A DNA stretch of 34,481 nt from a virus. The notes under the pieces are model-generated. The model was not told the origin of the DNA. It saw only the letters and a list, made by a program, of their open reading frames with translations, and ran no database searches. A program made the translations under genes and the position numbers. Numbering within the stretch: position 1 is the first letter of the stretch; each line of letters begins with the position of its first letter. This document shows positions 17,807-33,975 of this stretch, piece by piece. The stretch covers positions 1-34,481 of the IMG/VR virus record IMGVR_UViG_3300031825_000354, one strand, 5' to 3'.

Positions 17807-19525
17807 CTACGCCAGGTCCCAGACCCGGACGTAATCCACGTAGGCGTGGACCGGCGGGCTGACCGACGCGGCTTCCTGGGGCAGCAGCTGGTTGGACAGC
17901 AGCAGGAACATCGGCTCCCGGAACTCGTCCCGCATCGGCAGGCGCGAGAGCTCCACCCGGTCCAGGTAGAAGATCATCCACTCGTCGGTCAGCAGGACGC
18001 CGTGGGTGTGCCACTCCCCGTCCGCGAGGCCGGCGAGGCTCTGATAGCTGCCGGTCTGCCAGTGCTGCGAGACCTCGCCCACCTGGAGGTTGGCGGCGGG
18101 GCGCAGGTGGACCGCCTTGTGGTGGCCGGTCGGGTTGGCGCCGGGGTAGTATTCCAGCACGTCGATCTCGGCGCGGGTCTTCGTGGCGTCGGTGTAGAGG
18201 CCGGCGGTGTAGAGCCAGAACGCGGCCCAGCAGCCCATCTGGCCGGTCGGGACCTTCATGCGGGCCTCGAAGTAGCCGTAGGCCTGACTGAAGCCCTCCC
18301 CGTCGCTCCCCACGGTCTGCATGTGGGCCGCGTACTTGGTCCCCGCGACATCCCGGATCTGAAGGTCGAGCACGCCAGCCGTGACGCTGAACGGGTCGCT
18401 GGCCTCGCCCGGGATGCCGTAGTCCGCCGCGCCGACCTTGGCCCGAACCGGCGAGCGCCAGGGGCCGGCCCCCTCGTCCAGGCTGATGCCCGACGTGTCT
18501 GTGAACACGTCCTCGAACGTCATGGTCCCGAGGAGCGCTTCGTTCAGGGCCGTCCCCGCATCGGCCTCCGAGAACACGTAGGTGCTTGGCGGGGCGTAGG
18601 GATCGGGCGGAATGGGCTCGTAGGGCGGGTTGGCGGCCTCTGCCGGGTCGTAGGAGCCCAGGAGCTGCAGCAGCGCCCCGAGCGAGCGGTAGAGCCGGAC
18701 TTCCTCCCGCTCGGTCAGGCCCTTGCCGTAGATGAAGGCCCCGATCCGTCGCGGCGAGCCGATGGCGTCGTCCGGGGTGCCGTCGAACTGCTCGTAGTGC
18801 CCGATCAGCAGCTCCAGGTCGCCCAACTGGACCGAGGGCCCGCCGGCCGCGCCGCACTGGACACCGTTGCGGCGAAGGACCGTGCTGGCCTCGCCCAAGC
18901 GGGTCGCGCCGGTCAGGCCCACCGCCGTGGTGATCCCGCTCGTGGCCGCCGCGGCGCTCCTGAAGGTGTGCTGGCGGGCGATCCGGCCCGCGACGGTCGT
19001 TGGAAGCCCGGTGAGCTGGTCGGTCTCGATGCCCTTGACGAAGGACCACTCCGACCCGGCCTCGGGCGCCGTGCCGGTCAGGGGCGTGTATTCGTTGGAC
19101 AGGATGAAGGCATAGACCCCGCAGTCATTCAGCGTCGCCCGGATCGCGTCCCGCTCGGGGATGAAGCCGGTGCGCCAGAACCCGCCCGTCGTGGGGTTGG
19201 ACCGCAGGCCGCCCTGCGGCGCCACTTCCCCTGCCCCGGCCCGGACCAGGCGGAACCGCGACGGGTCGCAGAGGTTGACCCCCGCCTCGTCCGCCGAGAA
19301 ATGGCCGGTCACATAGAACAGGTCCGACTTGCCGATGATGTCGGCGTTCATGCGGACGAACCAGTCATAGGCCGCGGTCATCTCGGCGCCAGGGCTCGAT
19401 CCCATGGCCGCGATCCAGCGGGCGGTGATCGGGTGCAGGCCGGAAGCCGGAGCATTCGCGGCCCCGGCCCGCATGGCCCGGCGGATCGCCCCCAGGCCCG
19501 CGCCACCATCGACCGTGCCGGGCAC
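17807..19525 (-). CDS. Tail depolymerase: fibre domain fused to a GH16 glycanase
   Basis: Encodes 572 aa. Residues 1-285 are paralogous to the protein encoded just upstream (19525-20370): same MP-x-TV-x-x-G start, similar central strands, and the same closing block (SPRRIGAFIYGKGLTEREE against SPRRVCFCYAGGILTDRPA). A Pro-rich linker (about 297-315) joins it to a GH16 beta-jelly-roll domain with the diagnostic motif EIDVLE at 453-458: Glu453 nucleophile, Asp455, Glu458 acid/base. GH16 enzymes cut beta-glucans or galactans, so this is likely a virion enzyme that opens host exopolysaccharide or capsule. GTG start at 19525 overlaps the preceding TAG. The polysaccharide substrate cannot be told from sequence. 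Confidence 0.88.
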   Translation of the reverse strand: MPGTVDGGAGLGAIRRAMRAGAANAPASGLHPITARWIAAMGSSPGAEMTAAYDWFVRMNADIIGKSDLFYVTGHFSADEAGVNLCDPSRFRLVRAGAGEVAPQGGLRSNPTTGGFWRTGFIPERDAIRATLNDCGVYAFILSNEYTPLTGTAPEAGSEWSFVKGIETDQLTGLPTTVAGRIARQHTFRSAAAATSGITTAVGLTGATRLGEASTVLRRNGVQCGAAGGPSVQLGDLELLIGHYEQFDGTPDDAIGSPRRIGAFIYGKGLTEREEVRLYRSLGALLQLLGSYDPAEAANPPYEPIPPDPYAPPSTYVFSEADAGTALNEALLGTMTFEDVFTDTSGISLDEGAGPWRSPVRAKVGAADYGIPGEASDPFSVTAGVLDLQIRDVAGTKYAAHMQTVGSDGEGFSQAYGYFEARMKVPTGQMGCWAAFWLYTAGLYTDATKTRAEIDVLEYYPGANPTGHHKAVHLRPAANLQVGEVSQHWQTGSYQSLAGLADGEWHTHGVLLTDEWMIFYLDRVELSRLPMRDEFREPMFLLLSNQLLPQEAASVSPPVHAYVDYVRVWDLA

Positions 19526-26762: not shown

Positions 26763-27584
26763 TCACCACCGCACTCTGGGGAAGCCATCGGCCTCCAGTT
26801 CCTCGGCCTCCTGGCCGTAGCCGAACTCGGCGAGGATGTGCTTGGGGACCAAGCATCCGAGATCGCCCGGCGGATACCCCCAGGCGCGGTCCCAGGGCTC
26901 TCCGGCCGCGACGGCATGGAGCCTGTCGCGCCATTCCTGGTCGAGGTCTCGCGGCCCCAGCCGGTCGGCCTCCTCCAACAGGCCGGTCAGCTCGACGACG
27001 CGGTCTCGGGCCAGGACGTAGCTGTCGTAGCCGGCGCGGCTGAAGGCGGCCTTCTCGCAGACCTCGAGCAGTTCGGCGGCCGTCGGCAGGAACTTCTGCT
27101 CCCTGGCGATCTGCCGCGTCGCCCGCGCGACCACCGCGGACGGATAGCCGGCCGCCATGACCTCGTGCAGCAGCGTCTCGACGTACACCTCGGGATTGTG
27201 CGGCCGGGCGTTCGGGAAGCCGTCCACCATCGTGGAGATCAGCGCCAGGGCCTGCGGCCGGTCAGGCTCCGCGGCTCGCAGCGCGTCCAGGGCCTCGATG
27301 ACCTCGTCCAGGCGCGCTTTCGGGGGGAGCTTCGCCAGGGCCTCGGTCGCGTCCCGGTGGGCCTCGTCGCCGTGCCGGTCCGGCCGCCGAATCTGCTCCA
27401 GGGTCGGCGGCGAGCGATAGATCCCGCGGTACCATTCGGGGAAGTCGCGCCCCAGCGCTTCGACCAAGCGCCATGGGCGTTCCAGCTCGTGGGCCGCCTG
27501 CAGCACCCGGGCGGCCGAGCGACCCCCTGAGGCTCTGGCGACCATCGGAGGCGCCTTGGCGGGCATGGAGGTCAGTTCGTTCAC
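26763..27584 (-). CDS. Replication partner protein (possible helicase loader)
   Basis: Encodes 273 aa, with GTG start overlapping the initiator gene stop (GTGA at 27581-27584). The centre is helical (LPPKARLDEVIEALDALRAA, PEVYVETLLHEVMAAGYPSAVVARATRQIAREQKFLPTAAELLEVCEKA). I see no Walker motif, so it is not a DnaC-type ATPase. Proteins of this kind follow DUF1376 initiators in many alphaproteobacterial prophages. By analogy with lambda O-P it may recruit the host helicase; this is inference from order alone. Confidence 0.7.
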   Translation of the reverse strand: MNELTSMPAKAPPMVARASGGRSAARVLQAAHELERPWRLVEALGRDFPEWYRGIYRSPPTLEQIRRPDRHGDEAHRDATEALAKLPPKARLDEVIEALDALRAAEPDRPQALALISTMVDGFPNARPHNPEVYVETLLHEVMAAGYPSAVVARATRQIAREQKFLPTAAELLEVCEKAAFSRAGYDSYVLARDRVVELTGLLEEADRLGPRDLDQEWRDRLHAVAAGEPWDRAWGYPPGDLGCLVPKHILAEFGYGQEAEELEADGFPRVRW

Positions 27585-28531
27585 TCGAAACCCTCCTCTT
27601 CGCGGATGCGGTCGGCGGCGTAGTCCATCGCCGACCAGGGGGCGCGGCCGTTGGCTCGGCGCGGGTTCGGGCCGGACGCGTGACGGGCTTCGGCTTCGGC
27701 CGCGAACTTGATCCCGTTGGCGACCCAGGTCCGCCAGGCCGCGCGCCAGTCAGCCATCAGGCTTCCCTTCGACTGGTGGTGGTTGCGGAAGCGCTGGGCT
27801 TCCCGCTCGAAGTCGAAGGGCAGGCCGTTCCGGGCGAACTCGTCGCGGGCGTAGTCGGCCTCATCGTCGCCAGGGAAATGCTCGGGTAGTTCTCGCCGAG
27901 CCTTCTGGCGGGGCTGCTTCAGGGGCTTGAGGGCGGGCGCGTCGGCGTGCGCGCGCTCATCAATAGCGCCAGCTATTGATGTTATATCCTCTCCTCTCCT
28001 CTCCTCTTGTCCCAGTCCCGCCGGGACAATGGGGGATGTCCCGCGGGACACGAGGCCATGTCCCGCGGGACATCCGGCCATGTCCAACGGGACAGACGCT
28101 GCATTTCTCGGGACAACCGCGCCCTCGCGGACCCTGCGGCGGTAGTCGGCCTTGCGCGTCGATTCTGCCTTGCGCCGGCTTCCCCGCCGCTCCCACTCCT
28201 CCAGGGTCTGCTCGCACAGCGTGGGGTGGTACCAGCGCCCGTCTCTGCAGAGCACCCATGGGGCCATGATCTCGGCCTTCACGGCGGCGAAGGCGTCGAC
28301 GTCCATGCCGAACCCCGCGGCCTCGGCCAGCTCGTCGTCGTCGTCCGGCATGGAGCCGGCCGGCACCTGCTTGTAGGCCTCTCCCCAGAGCATGACGTTC
28401 CGGGCCCGCGCCATGTCCGACGCGCGCCGCCACCACTTCGATTTCCGCAGGCGGTCGAAATAGAGCCGGAACCAGTCGTTGCCGGCCATGTCGCAGTCAG
28501 CCGGGACGGGCGGGTCGGGAAGGGCGCTCAT
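27581..28531 (-). CDS. DUF1376 replication initiator, lambda O-like
   Basis: Encodes 316 aa. Residues about 19-115 form the DUF1376 domain (DWFRLYFDRLRKSKWWRRASDMARARNVMLW, PWVLCRDGRWYHPTLCEQTLEEWERR). A central Arg/Gly/Pro-rich linker (about 125-210) is encoded by the dyad repeats, polypyrimidine tract and inverted repeat described separately. A C-terminal helical domain (DEADYARDEFARNGLPFDFEREAQRFRNHHQSKGSLMADWRAAWRTWV) follows, resembling phage replisome-organiser C-termini. The arrangement, with the origin inside the initiator gene, is that of lambda O. ATG overlaps the preceding stop (ATGA). Confidence 0.85.
   Translation of the reverse strand: MSALPDPPVPADCDMAGNDWFRLYFDRLRKSKWWRRASDMARARNVMLWGEAYKQVPAGSMPDDDDELAEAAGFGMDVDAFAAVKAEIMAPWVLCRDGRWYHPTLCEQTLEEWERRGSRRKAESTRKADYRRRVREGAVVPRNAASVPLDMAGCPAGHGLVSRGTSPIVPAGLGQEERRGEDITSIAGAIDERAHADAPALKPLKQPRQKARRELPEHFPGDDEADYARDEFARNGLPFDFEREAQRFRNHHQSKGSLMADWRAAWRTWVANGIKFAAEAEARHASGPNPRRANGRAPWSAMDYAADRIREEEGFE
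27958..28007. other. Predicted unwinding region: polypyrimidine tract and AT-rich inverted repeat
   Basis: Next to the iterons is (CCTCT)4 at 27988-28007, then the AT-rich GTTATAT and an inverted repeat with 10-bp perfect arms, CATCAATAGC (27958-27967) and GCTATTGATG (27972-27981), around a 4-base loop. In a very GC-rich genome this AT-rich patch stands out. Lambda ori has the same order: iterons, strand-asymmetric AT-rich tract, then a palindrome. Initiation of melting here is inferred. Confidence 0.72.
28008..28116 (-). repeat. Initiator-binding iterons inside the replication gene
   Basis: Four dyads built from TGTCCC and GGGACA lie at 28015-28028, 28037-28050, 28059-28072 and 28081-28094. 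The second and third are the perfect 14-bp palindrome TGTCCCGCGGGACA; the first and fourth have one or two changes. GGGACA recurs once more at 28110-28115, and a lone TGTCCC at 28008-28013. Right half-sites end at 28028, 28050, 28072, 28094 and 28115, so the period is 22 bp with a last step of 21. This helical phasing (two turns) is what an initiator binding side by side would need. Confidence 0.8.
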
Positions 28532-30171: not shown

Positions 30172-30201
30172 ATGCTACGCATAATGCGCAATGAACGTCA
30201 A
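30172..30201 (-). promoter_or_regulatory. Leftward early promoter for the cro-like gene
   Basis: On the minus strand TTGACG (30201-30196), 18 bases, then TAGCAT (30177-30172), seven bases before the ATG at 30164. TTGACG is the -35 type known from Caulobacter housekeeping promoters. A partly palindromic ACGCA-N3-TGCGC (30177-30189) overlaps the spacer and should be an operator. Confidence 0.65.
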
Positions 30202-30216
30202 CGCACAACGCATAGT
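30176..30216. repeat. Operator block A, in front of the repressor gene
   Basis: This 41-bp block matches block B (30915-30955) at 30 of 41 positions without gaps. It starts TACGCA, includes a dyad ACGCA-TAA-TGCGC and ends CAACGCATAGT, where CATAGT can serve as -10 for the rightward repressor transcript. Four ACGCA-like half sites are present. It covers the leftward promoter as well, so binding would control both directions. Confidence 0.65.
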
Positions 30217-30238
30217 AAGGTGTGGTAGGCAACGCGGG

Positions 30239-30913
30239 ATGAAGCCGCACGAACGCCTACAGCAGGCCCGGCGCCAGGCCGGATATGCGACCGCCACGTC
30301 TGCCGCGGAAGCCTACGGCTGGCCGCCGAGCACTTATCTCGGCCACGAGAACGGCTCGCGCGGTATCAACCAGGACGCCGCGCAGCGCTACGCCCGGGCC
30401 TTTGGGGTCTCGTGGTCCTGGATCCTCGGCGGTGACGATGTCGAGTTTGATGAGCTTCTTCAGAATCTCGGCTCAATCCCCGTCTCCGGCGTCATAGATC
30501 CCGACGCCTTTCGACCCTATGACTTCTCTCTGGACGGCGCACCAGACCGCATCGCGATCCAGCTGTTCGGCTACGAGAGTAGAGGGCTGAAGGCGTTCGT
30601 TCTCTACTACGGGTGGCCCCACGTTCAGCACTTCTTGATCACTGCCGATGTTGGGGCGGCCTCCATCCGGGATGGCGACGAGATTGTGGTTCGACGCCTT
30701 GAGGGCGGCCGCTATGAACTCGCTGCTTGGCGCCTGACCCAACAGGGGCGCGATCATGTTCTCTCGCCAGCCTACGCGCCTCATATCCAGATGGCTGCGC
30801 ACCCCGTCGACATCCTGGACGAGCCTGGAACCGAGCTACTCGGAATCGTCGTCGCCGAACTCAAGATCAAAAGCAGGCGCGAGACTCCCTGGGATGCCCC
30901 CATCGAGTTCTAA
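30239..30913 (+). CDS. CI-like phage repressor with degenerate S24-type C-terminal domain
   Basis: Encodes 224 aa from the ATG at 30239. The N-terminal HTH (MKPHERLQQARRQAGYATATSAAEAYGWPPSTYLGHENGSRG, then AQRYARAFGVSWSWILGG) is typical of alphaproteobacterial prophage repressors. The C-terminal part follows the LexA/CI fold (IRDGDEIVVRRLEGGRYELAAWRLTQQG, then TELLGIVVAELK), but no catalytic Ser in a G-x-S-M context is visible, and the Lys position reads Trp-Arg. It may therefore not self-cleave. An in-frame ATG at 30191 lies inside the operators and is less likely. It maintains lysogeny by binding operator blocks A and B, by inference. Confidence 0.85.
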   Translation: MKPHERLQQARRQAGYATATSAAEAYGWPPSTYLGHENGSRGINQDAAQRYARAFGVSWSWILGGDDVEFDELLQNLGSIPVSGVIDPDAFRPYDFSLDGAPDRIAIQLFGYESRGLKAFVLYYGWPHVQHFLITADVGAASIRDGDEIVVRRLEGGRYELAAWRLTQQGRDHVLSPAYAPHIQMAAHPVDILDEPGTELLGIVVAELKIKSRRETPWDAPIEF

Positions 30914-32504: not shown

Positions 32505-33001
32505 CCGCCAGGGACCCGCTCGCCCGCGTCCGCCGCCGGCCCGACCCTGCGGACTGGGCCGACGACGACAAGCTGACGCTTCGCGAGGCCGTCGCGCTGT
32601 TCTGGCCTGAGGGCCCGGTCACGCTGGCGACGATCCGGGGCGTGATCGCCAAGGGGGAATTGACGCCCTTCTGGCTTGGGAACAGGTTCTTCGTCACGCC
32701 CGCCCAGATGCGCGGCCTTTTCCAGCCGAGACCATGTCGAGACCGTCCAAGGGGCCCAGGCTCCACCTCCGAAAAGGTCGCCGCCATCCCCGGACCGGCC
32801 GGCCCATCCCCGACGTCTACTACATCCGAGACGGAGCGCTTGAACGCAGCACTGGCTTCGGTCCAGATCGGCTTGGCGAAGCTGAGGCGGCACTCACCGC
32901 CTACCTCCTCGAAAAGCAGGCTCGGGCCGCGGACCGGCCCGCAGGCGGCGATCCCGACCGCCCCCGTGATCCCCATGAGGTCTTCGTCGCGGAGGTCTTG
33001 A
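32501..33001 (+). CDS. Excisionase-like DNA-binding protein overlapping the integrase
   Basis: Encodes 166 aa from a coupled GTG. Residues about 25-75 (DKLTLREAVALFWPEGPVTLATIRGVIAKGELTPFWLGNRFFVTPAQMRGLF) match the winged helix-turn-helix of excisionase/AlpA-like proteins found upstream of integrases in alphaproteobacterial prophages. The rest is Pro/Ser/Arg-rich and runs 268 bases into the integrase gene in another frame. The HTH part is convincing; the overlapped tail may be disordered. Proposed role: directing excision with the integrase. Confidence 0.72.
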   Translation: MTARDPLARVRRRPDPADWADDDKLTLREAVALFWPEGPVTLATIRGVIAKGELTPFWLGNRFFVTPAQMRGLFQPRPCRDRPRGPGSTSEKVAAIPGPAGPSPTSTTSETERLNAALASVQIGLAKLRRHSPPTSSKSRLGPRTGPQAAIPTAPVIPMRSSSRRS

Positions 33002-33975
33002 GCCTCTACCTCGCCGAGAAGGCGCCCAAGGCGGCCGACCCGTCGGCGGTGGCGGCCCGGATCAAGGCCCTGGTCGGCTGGTGGAGCGAGAAGCGGCTGT
33101 CCGACGTCAGGCGCTCGACGTGCCAAGGCTACGTCGCCCACCGGATCACCCAGCCCATCGCCCAGGCCAAGGGCCCAAACGCCCGTCTCGTGACCGAGCA
33201 GGGCGCCCGCCGCGAACTGGAAGACCTGTCGGCGGCGATCACCTACTACGACGGCGAGCACAAGCTGACGGTGAAGCCGAGGATCTGGCTTCCGGAGAAG
33301 CCCGAGAGCCCGCGCGACGCCCTGACCCGCGCCCAGGCCGCCCGCCTCCTCATGGCCGCCCGCGGGTACCGGTGGAACGCCGAAGCCAGGCGCTGGACCC
33401 GTCTTCGGGACAGCGGGCCGGCAAACCGGGCGCACATGAAGCGCTTCATCCTGATCGGCCTCTACACCGGCTCCAGGCCCGGCGTGATCCCGAAGGTGCT
33501 CTGGCGGGAATCGCCGACCCAGGCTTGGGCCGACCTCGACGCCGAGACGATCTTCCGGCGCGGCAAGCGCGAGCGGGACAGCCGGACCAAGCGCCGGCCG
33601 CTGGTCAAGCTCCCGCCCCGGCTCCTCGCCCACATGCGGCGCTGGCAGGCCGCCGACGAACGCATCATGGCCGAGCGGGCGAAGAAGGGCCTGAAGGTCT
33701 GCGCCTCGGTCCTTCACCACGGCGGGGCGCCGATCACCGGCCGGATCAGGACCGGGTTCGAGGGTTGCGTCCGCGACGCCGGCCTGCCGCCCGAGGTCAC
33801 GCCCCACTGGCTCAGGCACACCGCCGCGACCTGGCTCATGCGGAACGGCGTCGATCCCTGGGAGGCGGCCGGCTACCTCGGCATGAACCTCAAGACCCTG
33901 ATCGACAACTACGGCCACCACCAGCCGAGCCACCAAGCCGGAGCGCGCCAAGGGATCGGAGGCAAGACCGGATGA
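32734..33975 (+). CDS. int: Tyrosine recombinase, phage integrase
   Basis: Encodes 413 aa. Catalytic residues visible are Arg248 (LYTGSRPGVI), His358 and Arg361 (HWLRHTAATWLM), and the nucleophile Tyr393 (IDNYGHHQP). The position usually holding His/Trp before the Tyr reads GYLGMNLKTL, a Met variant that I recall from related alphaproteobacterial integrases. An N-terminal arm-type/core-binding region occupies about 1-190. It integrates and excises the phage genome at an att site, which I could not identify. The start overlaps the excisionase-like gene. Confidence 0.92.
   Translation: MSRPSKGPRLHLRKGRRHPRTGRPIPDVYYIRDGALERSTGFGPDRLGEAEAALTAYLLEKQARAADRPAGGDPDRPRDPHEVFVAEVLSLYLAEKAPKAADPSAVAARIKALVGWWSEKRLSDVRRSTCQGYVAHRITQPIAQAKGPNARLVTEQGARRELEDLSAAITYYDGEHKLTVKPRIWLPEKPESPRDALTRAQAARLLMAARGYRWNAEARRWTRLRDSGPANRAHMKRFILIGLYTGSRPGVIPKVLWRESPTQAWADLDAETIFRRGKRERDSRTKRRPLVKLPPRLLAHMRRWQAADERIMAERAKKGLKVCASVLHHGGAPITGRIRTGFEGCVRDAGLPPEVTPHWLRHTAATWLMRNGVDPWEAAGYLGMNLKTLIDNYGHHQPSHQAGARQGIGGKTG

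Follow-up and report, generated by a model that had tools for sequence, protein, structure and literature searches.

Is the repeat-rich middle of a putative phage initiator gene the replication origin of that phage, as it is for gene O of bacteriophage lambda? The question is raised by virus record IMGVR_UViG_3300031825_000354, whose 34,481 bases (hereafter, the window) include terminase genes and, on the minus strand, an open reading frame of 316 aa that, from its translation, we consider a putative replication initiator related to DUF1376 (27581..28531). Comparison of sequences leads us to conclude that the segment is very probably a phage replication origin, situated within its own initiator gene, in the part that encodes the linker; most likely, it is a lambda-like origin with a non-homologous initiator. 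We found no description of this origin arrangement in the open-access literature, where DUF1376 receives single mentions in papers that are, by title, on other topics.

The initiator gene and its neighborhood

The 316-aa protein matches PHROG 22470, annotated as "replication protein" (E=2e-19), and Pfam PF07120 (DUF1376) with E=2.7e-5 and 24.9 bits, under the gathering score of 30.1. Residues P7, S31, P57, S60, P62, D97, R99, and H102 are invariant in 104 DUF1376-family sequences, the window's included. Homologs among phage records reach 28-39% identity at best, and several of them are annotated as replication or primosomal proteins.

Directly after the initiator, and overlapping its stop, lies a gene for 273 aa (26763-27584, minus strand) that has nothing above chance in Pfam, PHROGs, or NCBIfam; it occupies the position that would be expected of a helicase loader gene. 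A promoter-like site (30172..30201, minus strand; a consensus match only, 9/12) would head the operon that runs through the origin. This site is divergent from a gene for a Cro/CI-type regulator (30191-30913, plus strand, identified by profile matches) and is likely to stand at the front of the replication operon, an arrangement shared with lambda. An integrase gene (32734-33975, also from profile matches) points to an integrated lifestyle. Elsewhere in the window, positions 17807-19525 (minus strand) encode a phage protein that contains a family 16 glycosyl hydrolase domain.

Proposed origin elements in the linker-coding segment

Along the gene, the core domain and a basic segment are followed by a half site, four dyads, an extra half site, (AGAGG)4, TATAACATCAATAG, and a hairpin. 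The iteron array begins with a half site in the 22-bp register (GGGACA on the plus strand, 28110..28115) and continues with a dyad carrying two mismatches (TGTCCAACGGGACA, 28081..28094), two perfect copies of TGTCCCGCGGGACA (28059..28072 and 28037..28050), and a fourth dyad, GTCCCGCCGGGAC(A), at 28015..28028 (28015-28027 without the final A). The centre-to-centre distance of these four GTCCC/GGGAC dyads is 22-22.5 bp. The extra half site (TGTCCC on the plus strand, 28008..28013) adjoins a purine tract assigned to the minus strand, (AGAGG)4 on the coding strand and (TCCTC)4.2 on the plus strand (27987..28007; TRF period 5, 4.2 copies, 100%). Next is a short AT-rich stretch, TATAACATCAATAG... 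on the coding strand (27970..27986); its sequence and the AT peak of the family make it the likely, predicted site of opening. The last element is the hairpin CATCAATAGC-GCCA-GCTATTGATG (27958..27981, plus strand), with 10-bp arms that are 100% complementary and a 4-nt loop. The initial annotation had reported four TGTCCC/GGGACA dyads at a 22-bp period with a half site, a (CCTCT)4 tract, and an AT-rich segment with an inverted repeat of 10-bp arms; all of them are present, the tract in the form given above.

We compared the segment with 5,000 synonymous shuffles in which the protein and its codon usage were held fixed, and none reached the observed count of the top hexamer. A stretch of 140 nt holds 8 GGGACA half-sites, whereas the shuffles have 0.8 on average and 5 at most. 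This enrichment is local, since the whole window holds 24 copies of GGGACA against 19.5 expected, which is no enrichment. The (AGAGG)4 tract has p=0.005 against synonymous shuffles, and TRF scores the repeats of the window at 81 and 42.

A layout conserved among DUF1376 genes

Alignment-based searches gave at least 80 IMG/VR loci and at least 80 loci in bacterial genomes; a single-protein query of the genome contigs had returned zero relatives, where the alignment query returned at least 80. After removal of redundancy (12-mer overlap cut-off of 25%), 128 DUF1376 genes were kept, including that of the window, and the named hosts of the sampled relatives are mostly Proteobacteria. Absence of the repeats from close relatives had been set beforehand as the observation that would count against an origin. 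The closest relative among the matches listed is a Caulobacter zeae locus, L014 (also numbered L094), with an identity of 71% over the tblastn segment and 79% over the core. It keeps TGTCCC/GGGACA dyads in the same place as the window, with an unrelated C-terminus.

Across the set, at least one of three signals is significant (p<=0.01 against synonymous-codon shuffles) in 89/128 genes; by the same measure, same-arm repeats stand out in 59/128 and the tract in 45/128. A tract comparable to that of the window is found in 88/128 genes, iterons together with a tract in 69/128, and all four elements in 43/128, while by our thresholds 40/128 genes have no tract and 15/128 no element at all. Dyads are denser in the linker (2.4 per 100 bp) than in the domain (1.0), and a spacing of 21-23 bp occurs in 37 out of 133 cases, compared to 2.4 expected and a maximum of 5 in 40 rounds of shuffling. 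At least nine iteron classes share the 22-bp period: GGGACA, GTGAC, GGAA, GAAAC, CGGAC, AGACG, GGGAT, ACGAT, and TGCC. When the relatives are anchored on their tracts, the order is dyads, tract, AT, and hairpin. Relative to the tract end, dyads are most frequent 40-120 nt before and hairpins 0-40 nt after.

The tract itself has a period of 5-6, with units that are mostly ACAGGG or AGAGGG, or the five-base ACAGG, AAGGG, and ACGGG, and in 44 of the 45 significant tracts the coding strand is the purine-rich one. Family-wide, the first 12 nt past the tract have an AT fraction of 0.66, compared to about 0.33 further on. Different genes read the GGGACA tract in different frames, all three being represented (22/12/4), with translations such as GQGQ or TGTG, which argues that DNA rather than protein is conserved there. 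The initial annotation had gone further and proposed that the DNA sequence of the repeats is what is conserved. The dyads of distant relatives, however, differ in sequence while keeping their place and order; on this comparison, the layout and the pairing of protein with DNA are conserved rather than the DNA sequence as such.

When viral contigs were searched for (GGGACA)3 without regard to protein, 73 tract-bearing ORFs were listed, 44 of which match DUF1376. Four other hits (L206, L213, L223, L253) are (GGGACA)3 repeats in low-complexity, repetitive viral ORFs that are not origin-like and form the background of this search. We rejected a G-quadruplex as the common role of the tract, as period-5 units with GG or a single G (AAGAC, ACAGG) have no capacity for three tetrads. 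Nor is tract type tied to one part of the protein other than weakly (core or helix 44-48/68, C-terminus 36, chance 28). Vibrio phage X29 (L011:2434-2560) has an initiator annotated as HTH_36 that resembles the window protein in its C-terminal part only; a GTGGAAATTCCAC dyad and ACAGAGACTAC-like repeats are found at the same relative place, so the layout may extend to other initiator families.

A hairpin with a strand-specific loop

We counted hairpins in the DUF1376 genes, requiring a stem of 6 bp or more and a loop of 3-4 nt. Of the 34 near the tract, 28 carry C(TNC)G or C(TNNC)G loops in the coding strand, so that the template strand reads C(GNA)G or C(GNNA)G; the coding strand itself has no GNA or GNNA loop of this kind there. 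The same loop is found in 1/34 hairpins elsewhere in the same genes and 0/25 among the iterons (1/59 in total), and shuffles yield 0.67 rule-fitting hairpins near the tract. The difference between near-tract hairpins and those elsewhere has a Fisher p of about 8e-17, an overstated value because some stems recur between loci. The hairpin of the window follows the rule, with a C(GCCA)G loop on the template strand, that is, the plus strand of the window. The signal is visible only in the position-resolved count and in the loop rule; scored locus by locus over 90 nt, it is hardly significant (p<=0.05 in 5/87), so hairpins at single loci are weak evidence. Nearest-neighbor folding gives -8.8 and -8.4 kcal/mol for the two strands of the window hairpin, which is no real discrimination.

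A GNA or GNNA loop closed by a C-G pair is the rule for unusually stable DNA mini-hairpins. The near-tract hairpins share both this loop and its closing pair, and we take them to be of this stable single-stranded type, with a presumed role at such origins. Extraordinarily stable DNA hairpins are established as a concept (PMC10527192).

The hairpin might instead work as RNA, for example as an mRNA stem-loop in pausing or control, the rest of the segment still being an origin. The strand bias would fit RNA as well as DNA, and the 3-nt TTC loops closed by C-G correspond to cUUCGg in RNA. Most loops (TAAC, TGAC, TATC, TGGC, and others) are not UNCG, whereas all of them, read on the opposite strand of the DNA, conform to GNA or GNNA. 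Moreover, no T run follows the hairpin in the window, and Rfam and tRNA scans of the window gave no match. We consider this reading rather unlikely, and it competes only with the last step of the mechanism proposed below; since all loops fit the DNA rule and most do not fit that of RNA, action of the hairpin as single-stranded DNA is the better guess.

A basic helix that tracks iteron class

An AlphaFold2 model predicts a winged-helix-like fold for the DUF1376 core (residues 1-102; 28226..28531, minus strand), which continues into one long basic helix (residues 103-135; 28127..28225, minus strand), our proposed specificity helix. The model of a relative, L115, has the same architecture. Mean pLDDT is 93.6 for residues 1-150 of the window protein and 94.9 for L115; past residue 135, that of the window falls to 63. 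Further along lies a C-terminal DnaT-like segment (27689..27904, minus strand), aligned with 10 relatives, which is a possible ssDNA- or loader-binding part. Pfam DnaT (PF17948) matches this segment in 5 of the 11 proteins (best 1.6e-6), the window protein not being among them, and a C-terminal profile gave no DnaT match in the PDB. The C-termini of DUF1376 relatives vary freely.

The sequence type of the helix tracks the iteron class: the TECARIKKHNQR type is found with GGGACA iterons, and a type MF..L...G..P.WN..T..LR accompanies GTGAC. Classes were defined by regular expressions written after the sequences had been viewed, and they leave 49/166 genes without a class. On these classes, nearest-neighbor prediction is correct for 78/94 genes from the helix, 52/94 from the core, and 39/90 from the C-terminus, with about 23 expected by chance. 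Masking the helix residues that are encoded by iterons leaves 74/94 correct. When neighbors are restricted to those with dissimilar cores (score <0.5), the masked helix still predicts 55/94, whereas the core, with neighbors restricted to dissimilar helices, predicts 5-14/94, below chance. We rejected the core as the determinant of iteron class, as cores that are about 80% identical carry different iterons. L071 and L149, for example, whose iterons are GGGACA and GTCACG, score 0.82 for similarity of the core and 0.33 for that of the helix.

Because class follows a helix of roughly 30 residues and neither the core nor the C-terminus, the helix together with its iterons resembles a single exchangeable specificity cassette and appears to move as a unit. 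From this correlation we infer that the helix touches iteron DNA. L149 and L158 carry TLCAAVRKHNER, a variant of the TECARIKKHNQR helix type, with GTGAC iterons; the change from TECARIKK to TLCAAVRK, alongside that from GGGACA to GTGAC, resembles a natural change of specificity in few residues.

Comparison with known origins

In lambda, the binding of O dimers to iterons leads to opening of the A+T-rich region next to them, and transcription and a DnaB loader take part (PMC5043065, PMC7466680). Lambda and lambdoid origins, such as those of Stx phages, lie in the middle of the initiator gene, as the proposed origin does in the window. Run on lambda ori, our scripts recovered inverted-repeat iterons at 20-24 bp, an A-rich purine tract, and an inverted repeat, in the order seen in the window. 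The parallel thus concerns iterons (about 20-24 bp apart and bound by initiator dimers in lambda, PMC5043065, PMC7466680; dyads at 22 bp here), and also a purine or AT-rich stretch followed by an inverted repeat on one side, the AT stretch of the window being short. The proposal that the lambda order is reproduced inside an initiator gene is supported both by lambda's own sequence and by the layout of distant relatives. Early transcription through the origin and a downstream loader or helicase complete the lambda arrangement, and the latter is found in relatives of the window: their next large ORFs encode DnaB-like helicases (phrog_19, 15/64) and primase/helicases (phrog_239, 15/64), and others encode RusA and, in a few cases, DnaC-like or lambda-P-like loaders.

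The two systems also differ. Lambda has an A-rich tract, whereas the DUF1376 genes have a G-rich one with a period of 5-6, and the C(GNNA)G loop on one strand of DUF1376 genes has no equivalent in lambda. The iteron sequence of the window is unrelated to that of lambda, and the many DUF1376 iteron classes are tied to a protein helix. The initial annotation had also held the initiator family to be unrelated, and in the profile libraries (Pfam, PHROGs, NCBIfam) the window initiator indeed has no match to the lambda O family. Given this, together with the lambda-like layout, we class the locus as one that would work like lambda ori but lies outside the O family. In lambda gene O, an A-rich purine tract lies between the iterons and the inverted repeat (L294:520-592), which suggests that embedded origins may have purine tracts in general.

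Plasmid initiators offer a second comparison. The best structural matches of the window core are the plasmid Rep initiators 4pql, 5kbj, 4pt7, and 4pta (Z 4.7-5.4, rmsd 3.1-4.2, 81-85 residues aligned; the highest Z, 5.4, comes with rmsd 3.1 over 81 residues), which are weak matches; Foldseek with the models found no significant fold match (E 0.14). These Reps of staphylococcal multiresistance plasmids (RepA_N) are the best match of both models, weak but consistent at Z 4.1-4.7 for one and 4.7-5.4 for the other. They are iteron-binding initiators, and the long basic helix of DUF1376 has no counterpart in them. Some RepA_N-type plasmids have their origin inside the rep gene. We found no sequence relation between RepA_N Reps and the window initiator, and the Z-scores are too low to claim a shared family.

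DnaT binds ssDNA and acts as an adapter for DnaB/C (PMC4132743). Several relatives have C-termini that match Pfam DnaT, and many carry other C-termini. A DnaT repeat length behind the period of 5-6 was rejected, as DnaT covers 2 nt per subunit.

Other roles for the repeats

The dyads could be operators, bound by an autoregulator that represses its own operon or by an immunity factor, with replication starting elsewhere. Dyads are typical of dimeric repressors and the predicted fold is winged-helix-like; such a role would leave unexplained why a purine tract, an AT peak, and a strand-specific hairpin follow in one order, and why helicase, primase, and loader genes lie downstream in the relatives. 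We regard it as improbable. Even less probable is that the iterons serve partition or incompatibility in a plasmid-like prophage, or else packaging or recombination. Iteron arrays do play such roles in plasmids, and recombination can be focused on a site that lies within a gene, in keeping with the freely varying C-termini; the gene families and neighbors are of the replication type, however, the terminase genes are separate, and the window has an integrase. A functionless, low-complexity linker is scarcely credible: slippage makes short tandem arrays where the protein does not constrain them, and model confidence is lower after residue 135, but this accounts neither for inverted repeats at a fixed 22-bp spacing in nine classes nor for the matching of class to helix or the one-strand loop rule.

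A possible mechanism

The computed results comprise the elements of the proposed origin with their order, spacing, and strand bias, the fact that these do not depend on reading frame, and the match between the classes of helix and iteron. A mechanism that would join them is as follows. Initiator dimers would occupy the dyads one by one, using both the winged-helix core and the long basic helix for binding, and the 22-bp spacing suggests that four or five of them would align on one face of the DNA. This assembly would strain the adjacent DNA, perhaps helped, by analogy with lambda, by transcription from the early promoter through the gene, and the AT-rich stretch after the purine tract would open. 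The tract may mark the strand or edge where the C-terminal part of the initiator, or the helicase loader, settles on ssDNA; this is the weakest step. The exposed template strand could then fold into the compact C(GNNA)G hairpin, which would hinder re-annealing and may mark the entry point of the helicase or primase.

Implications for DUF1376 and embedded phage origins

A broader reading would make DUF1376 loci exchangeable origin modules, in which helix and iterons are swapped together over a constant core and tract, with a new hairpin element for helicase or primase entry and a readable helix-iteron code; we see the case for this as evenly balanced. Pfam lists DUF1376 as a domain of unknown function, and here it is likely the DNA-reading part of a widespread phage initiator. 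For many phages and prophages, its origin is now predicted at base-pair resolution. Naturally occurring pairs of helix and iteron make initiator specificity directly testable, and both the purine tract of short period and the hairpin confined to one strand are candidates for strand opening and helicase placement at embedded phage origins.
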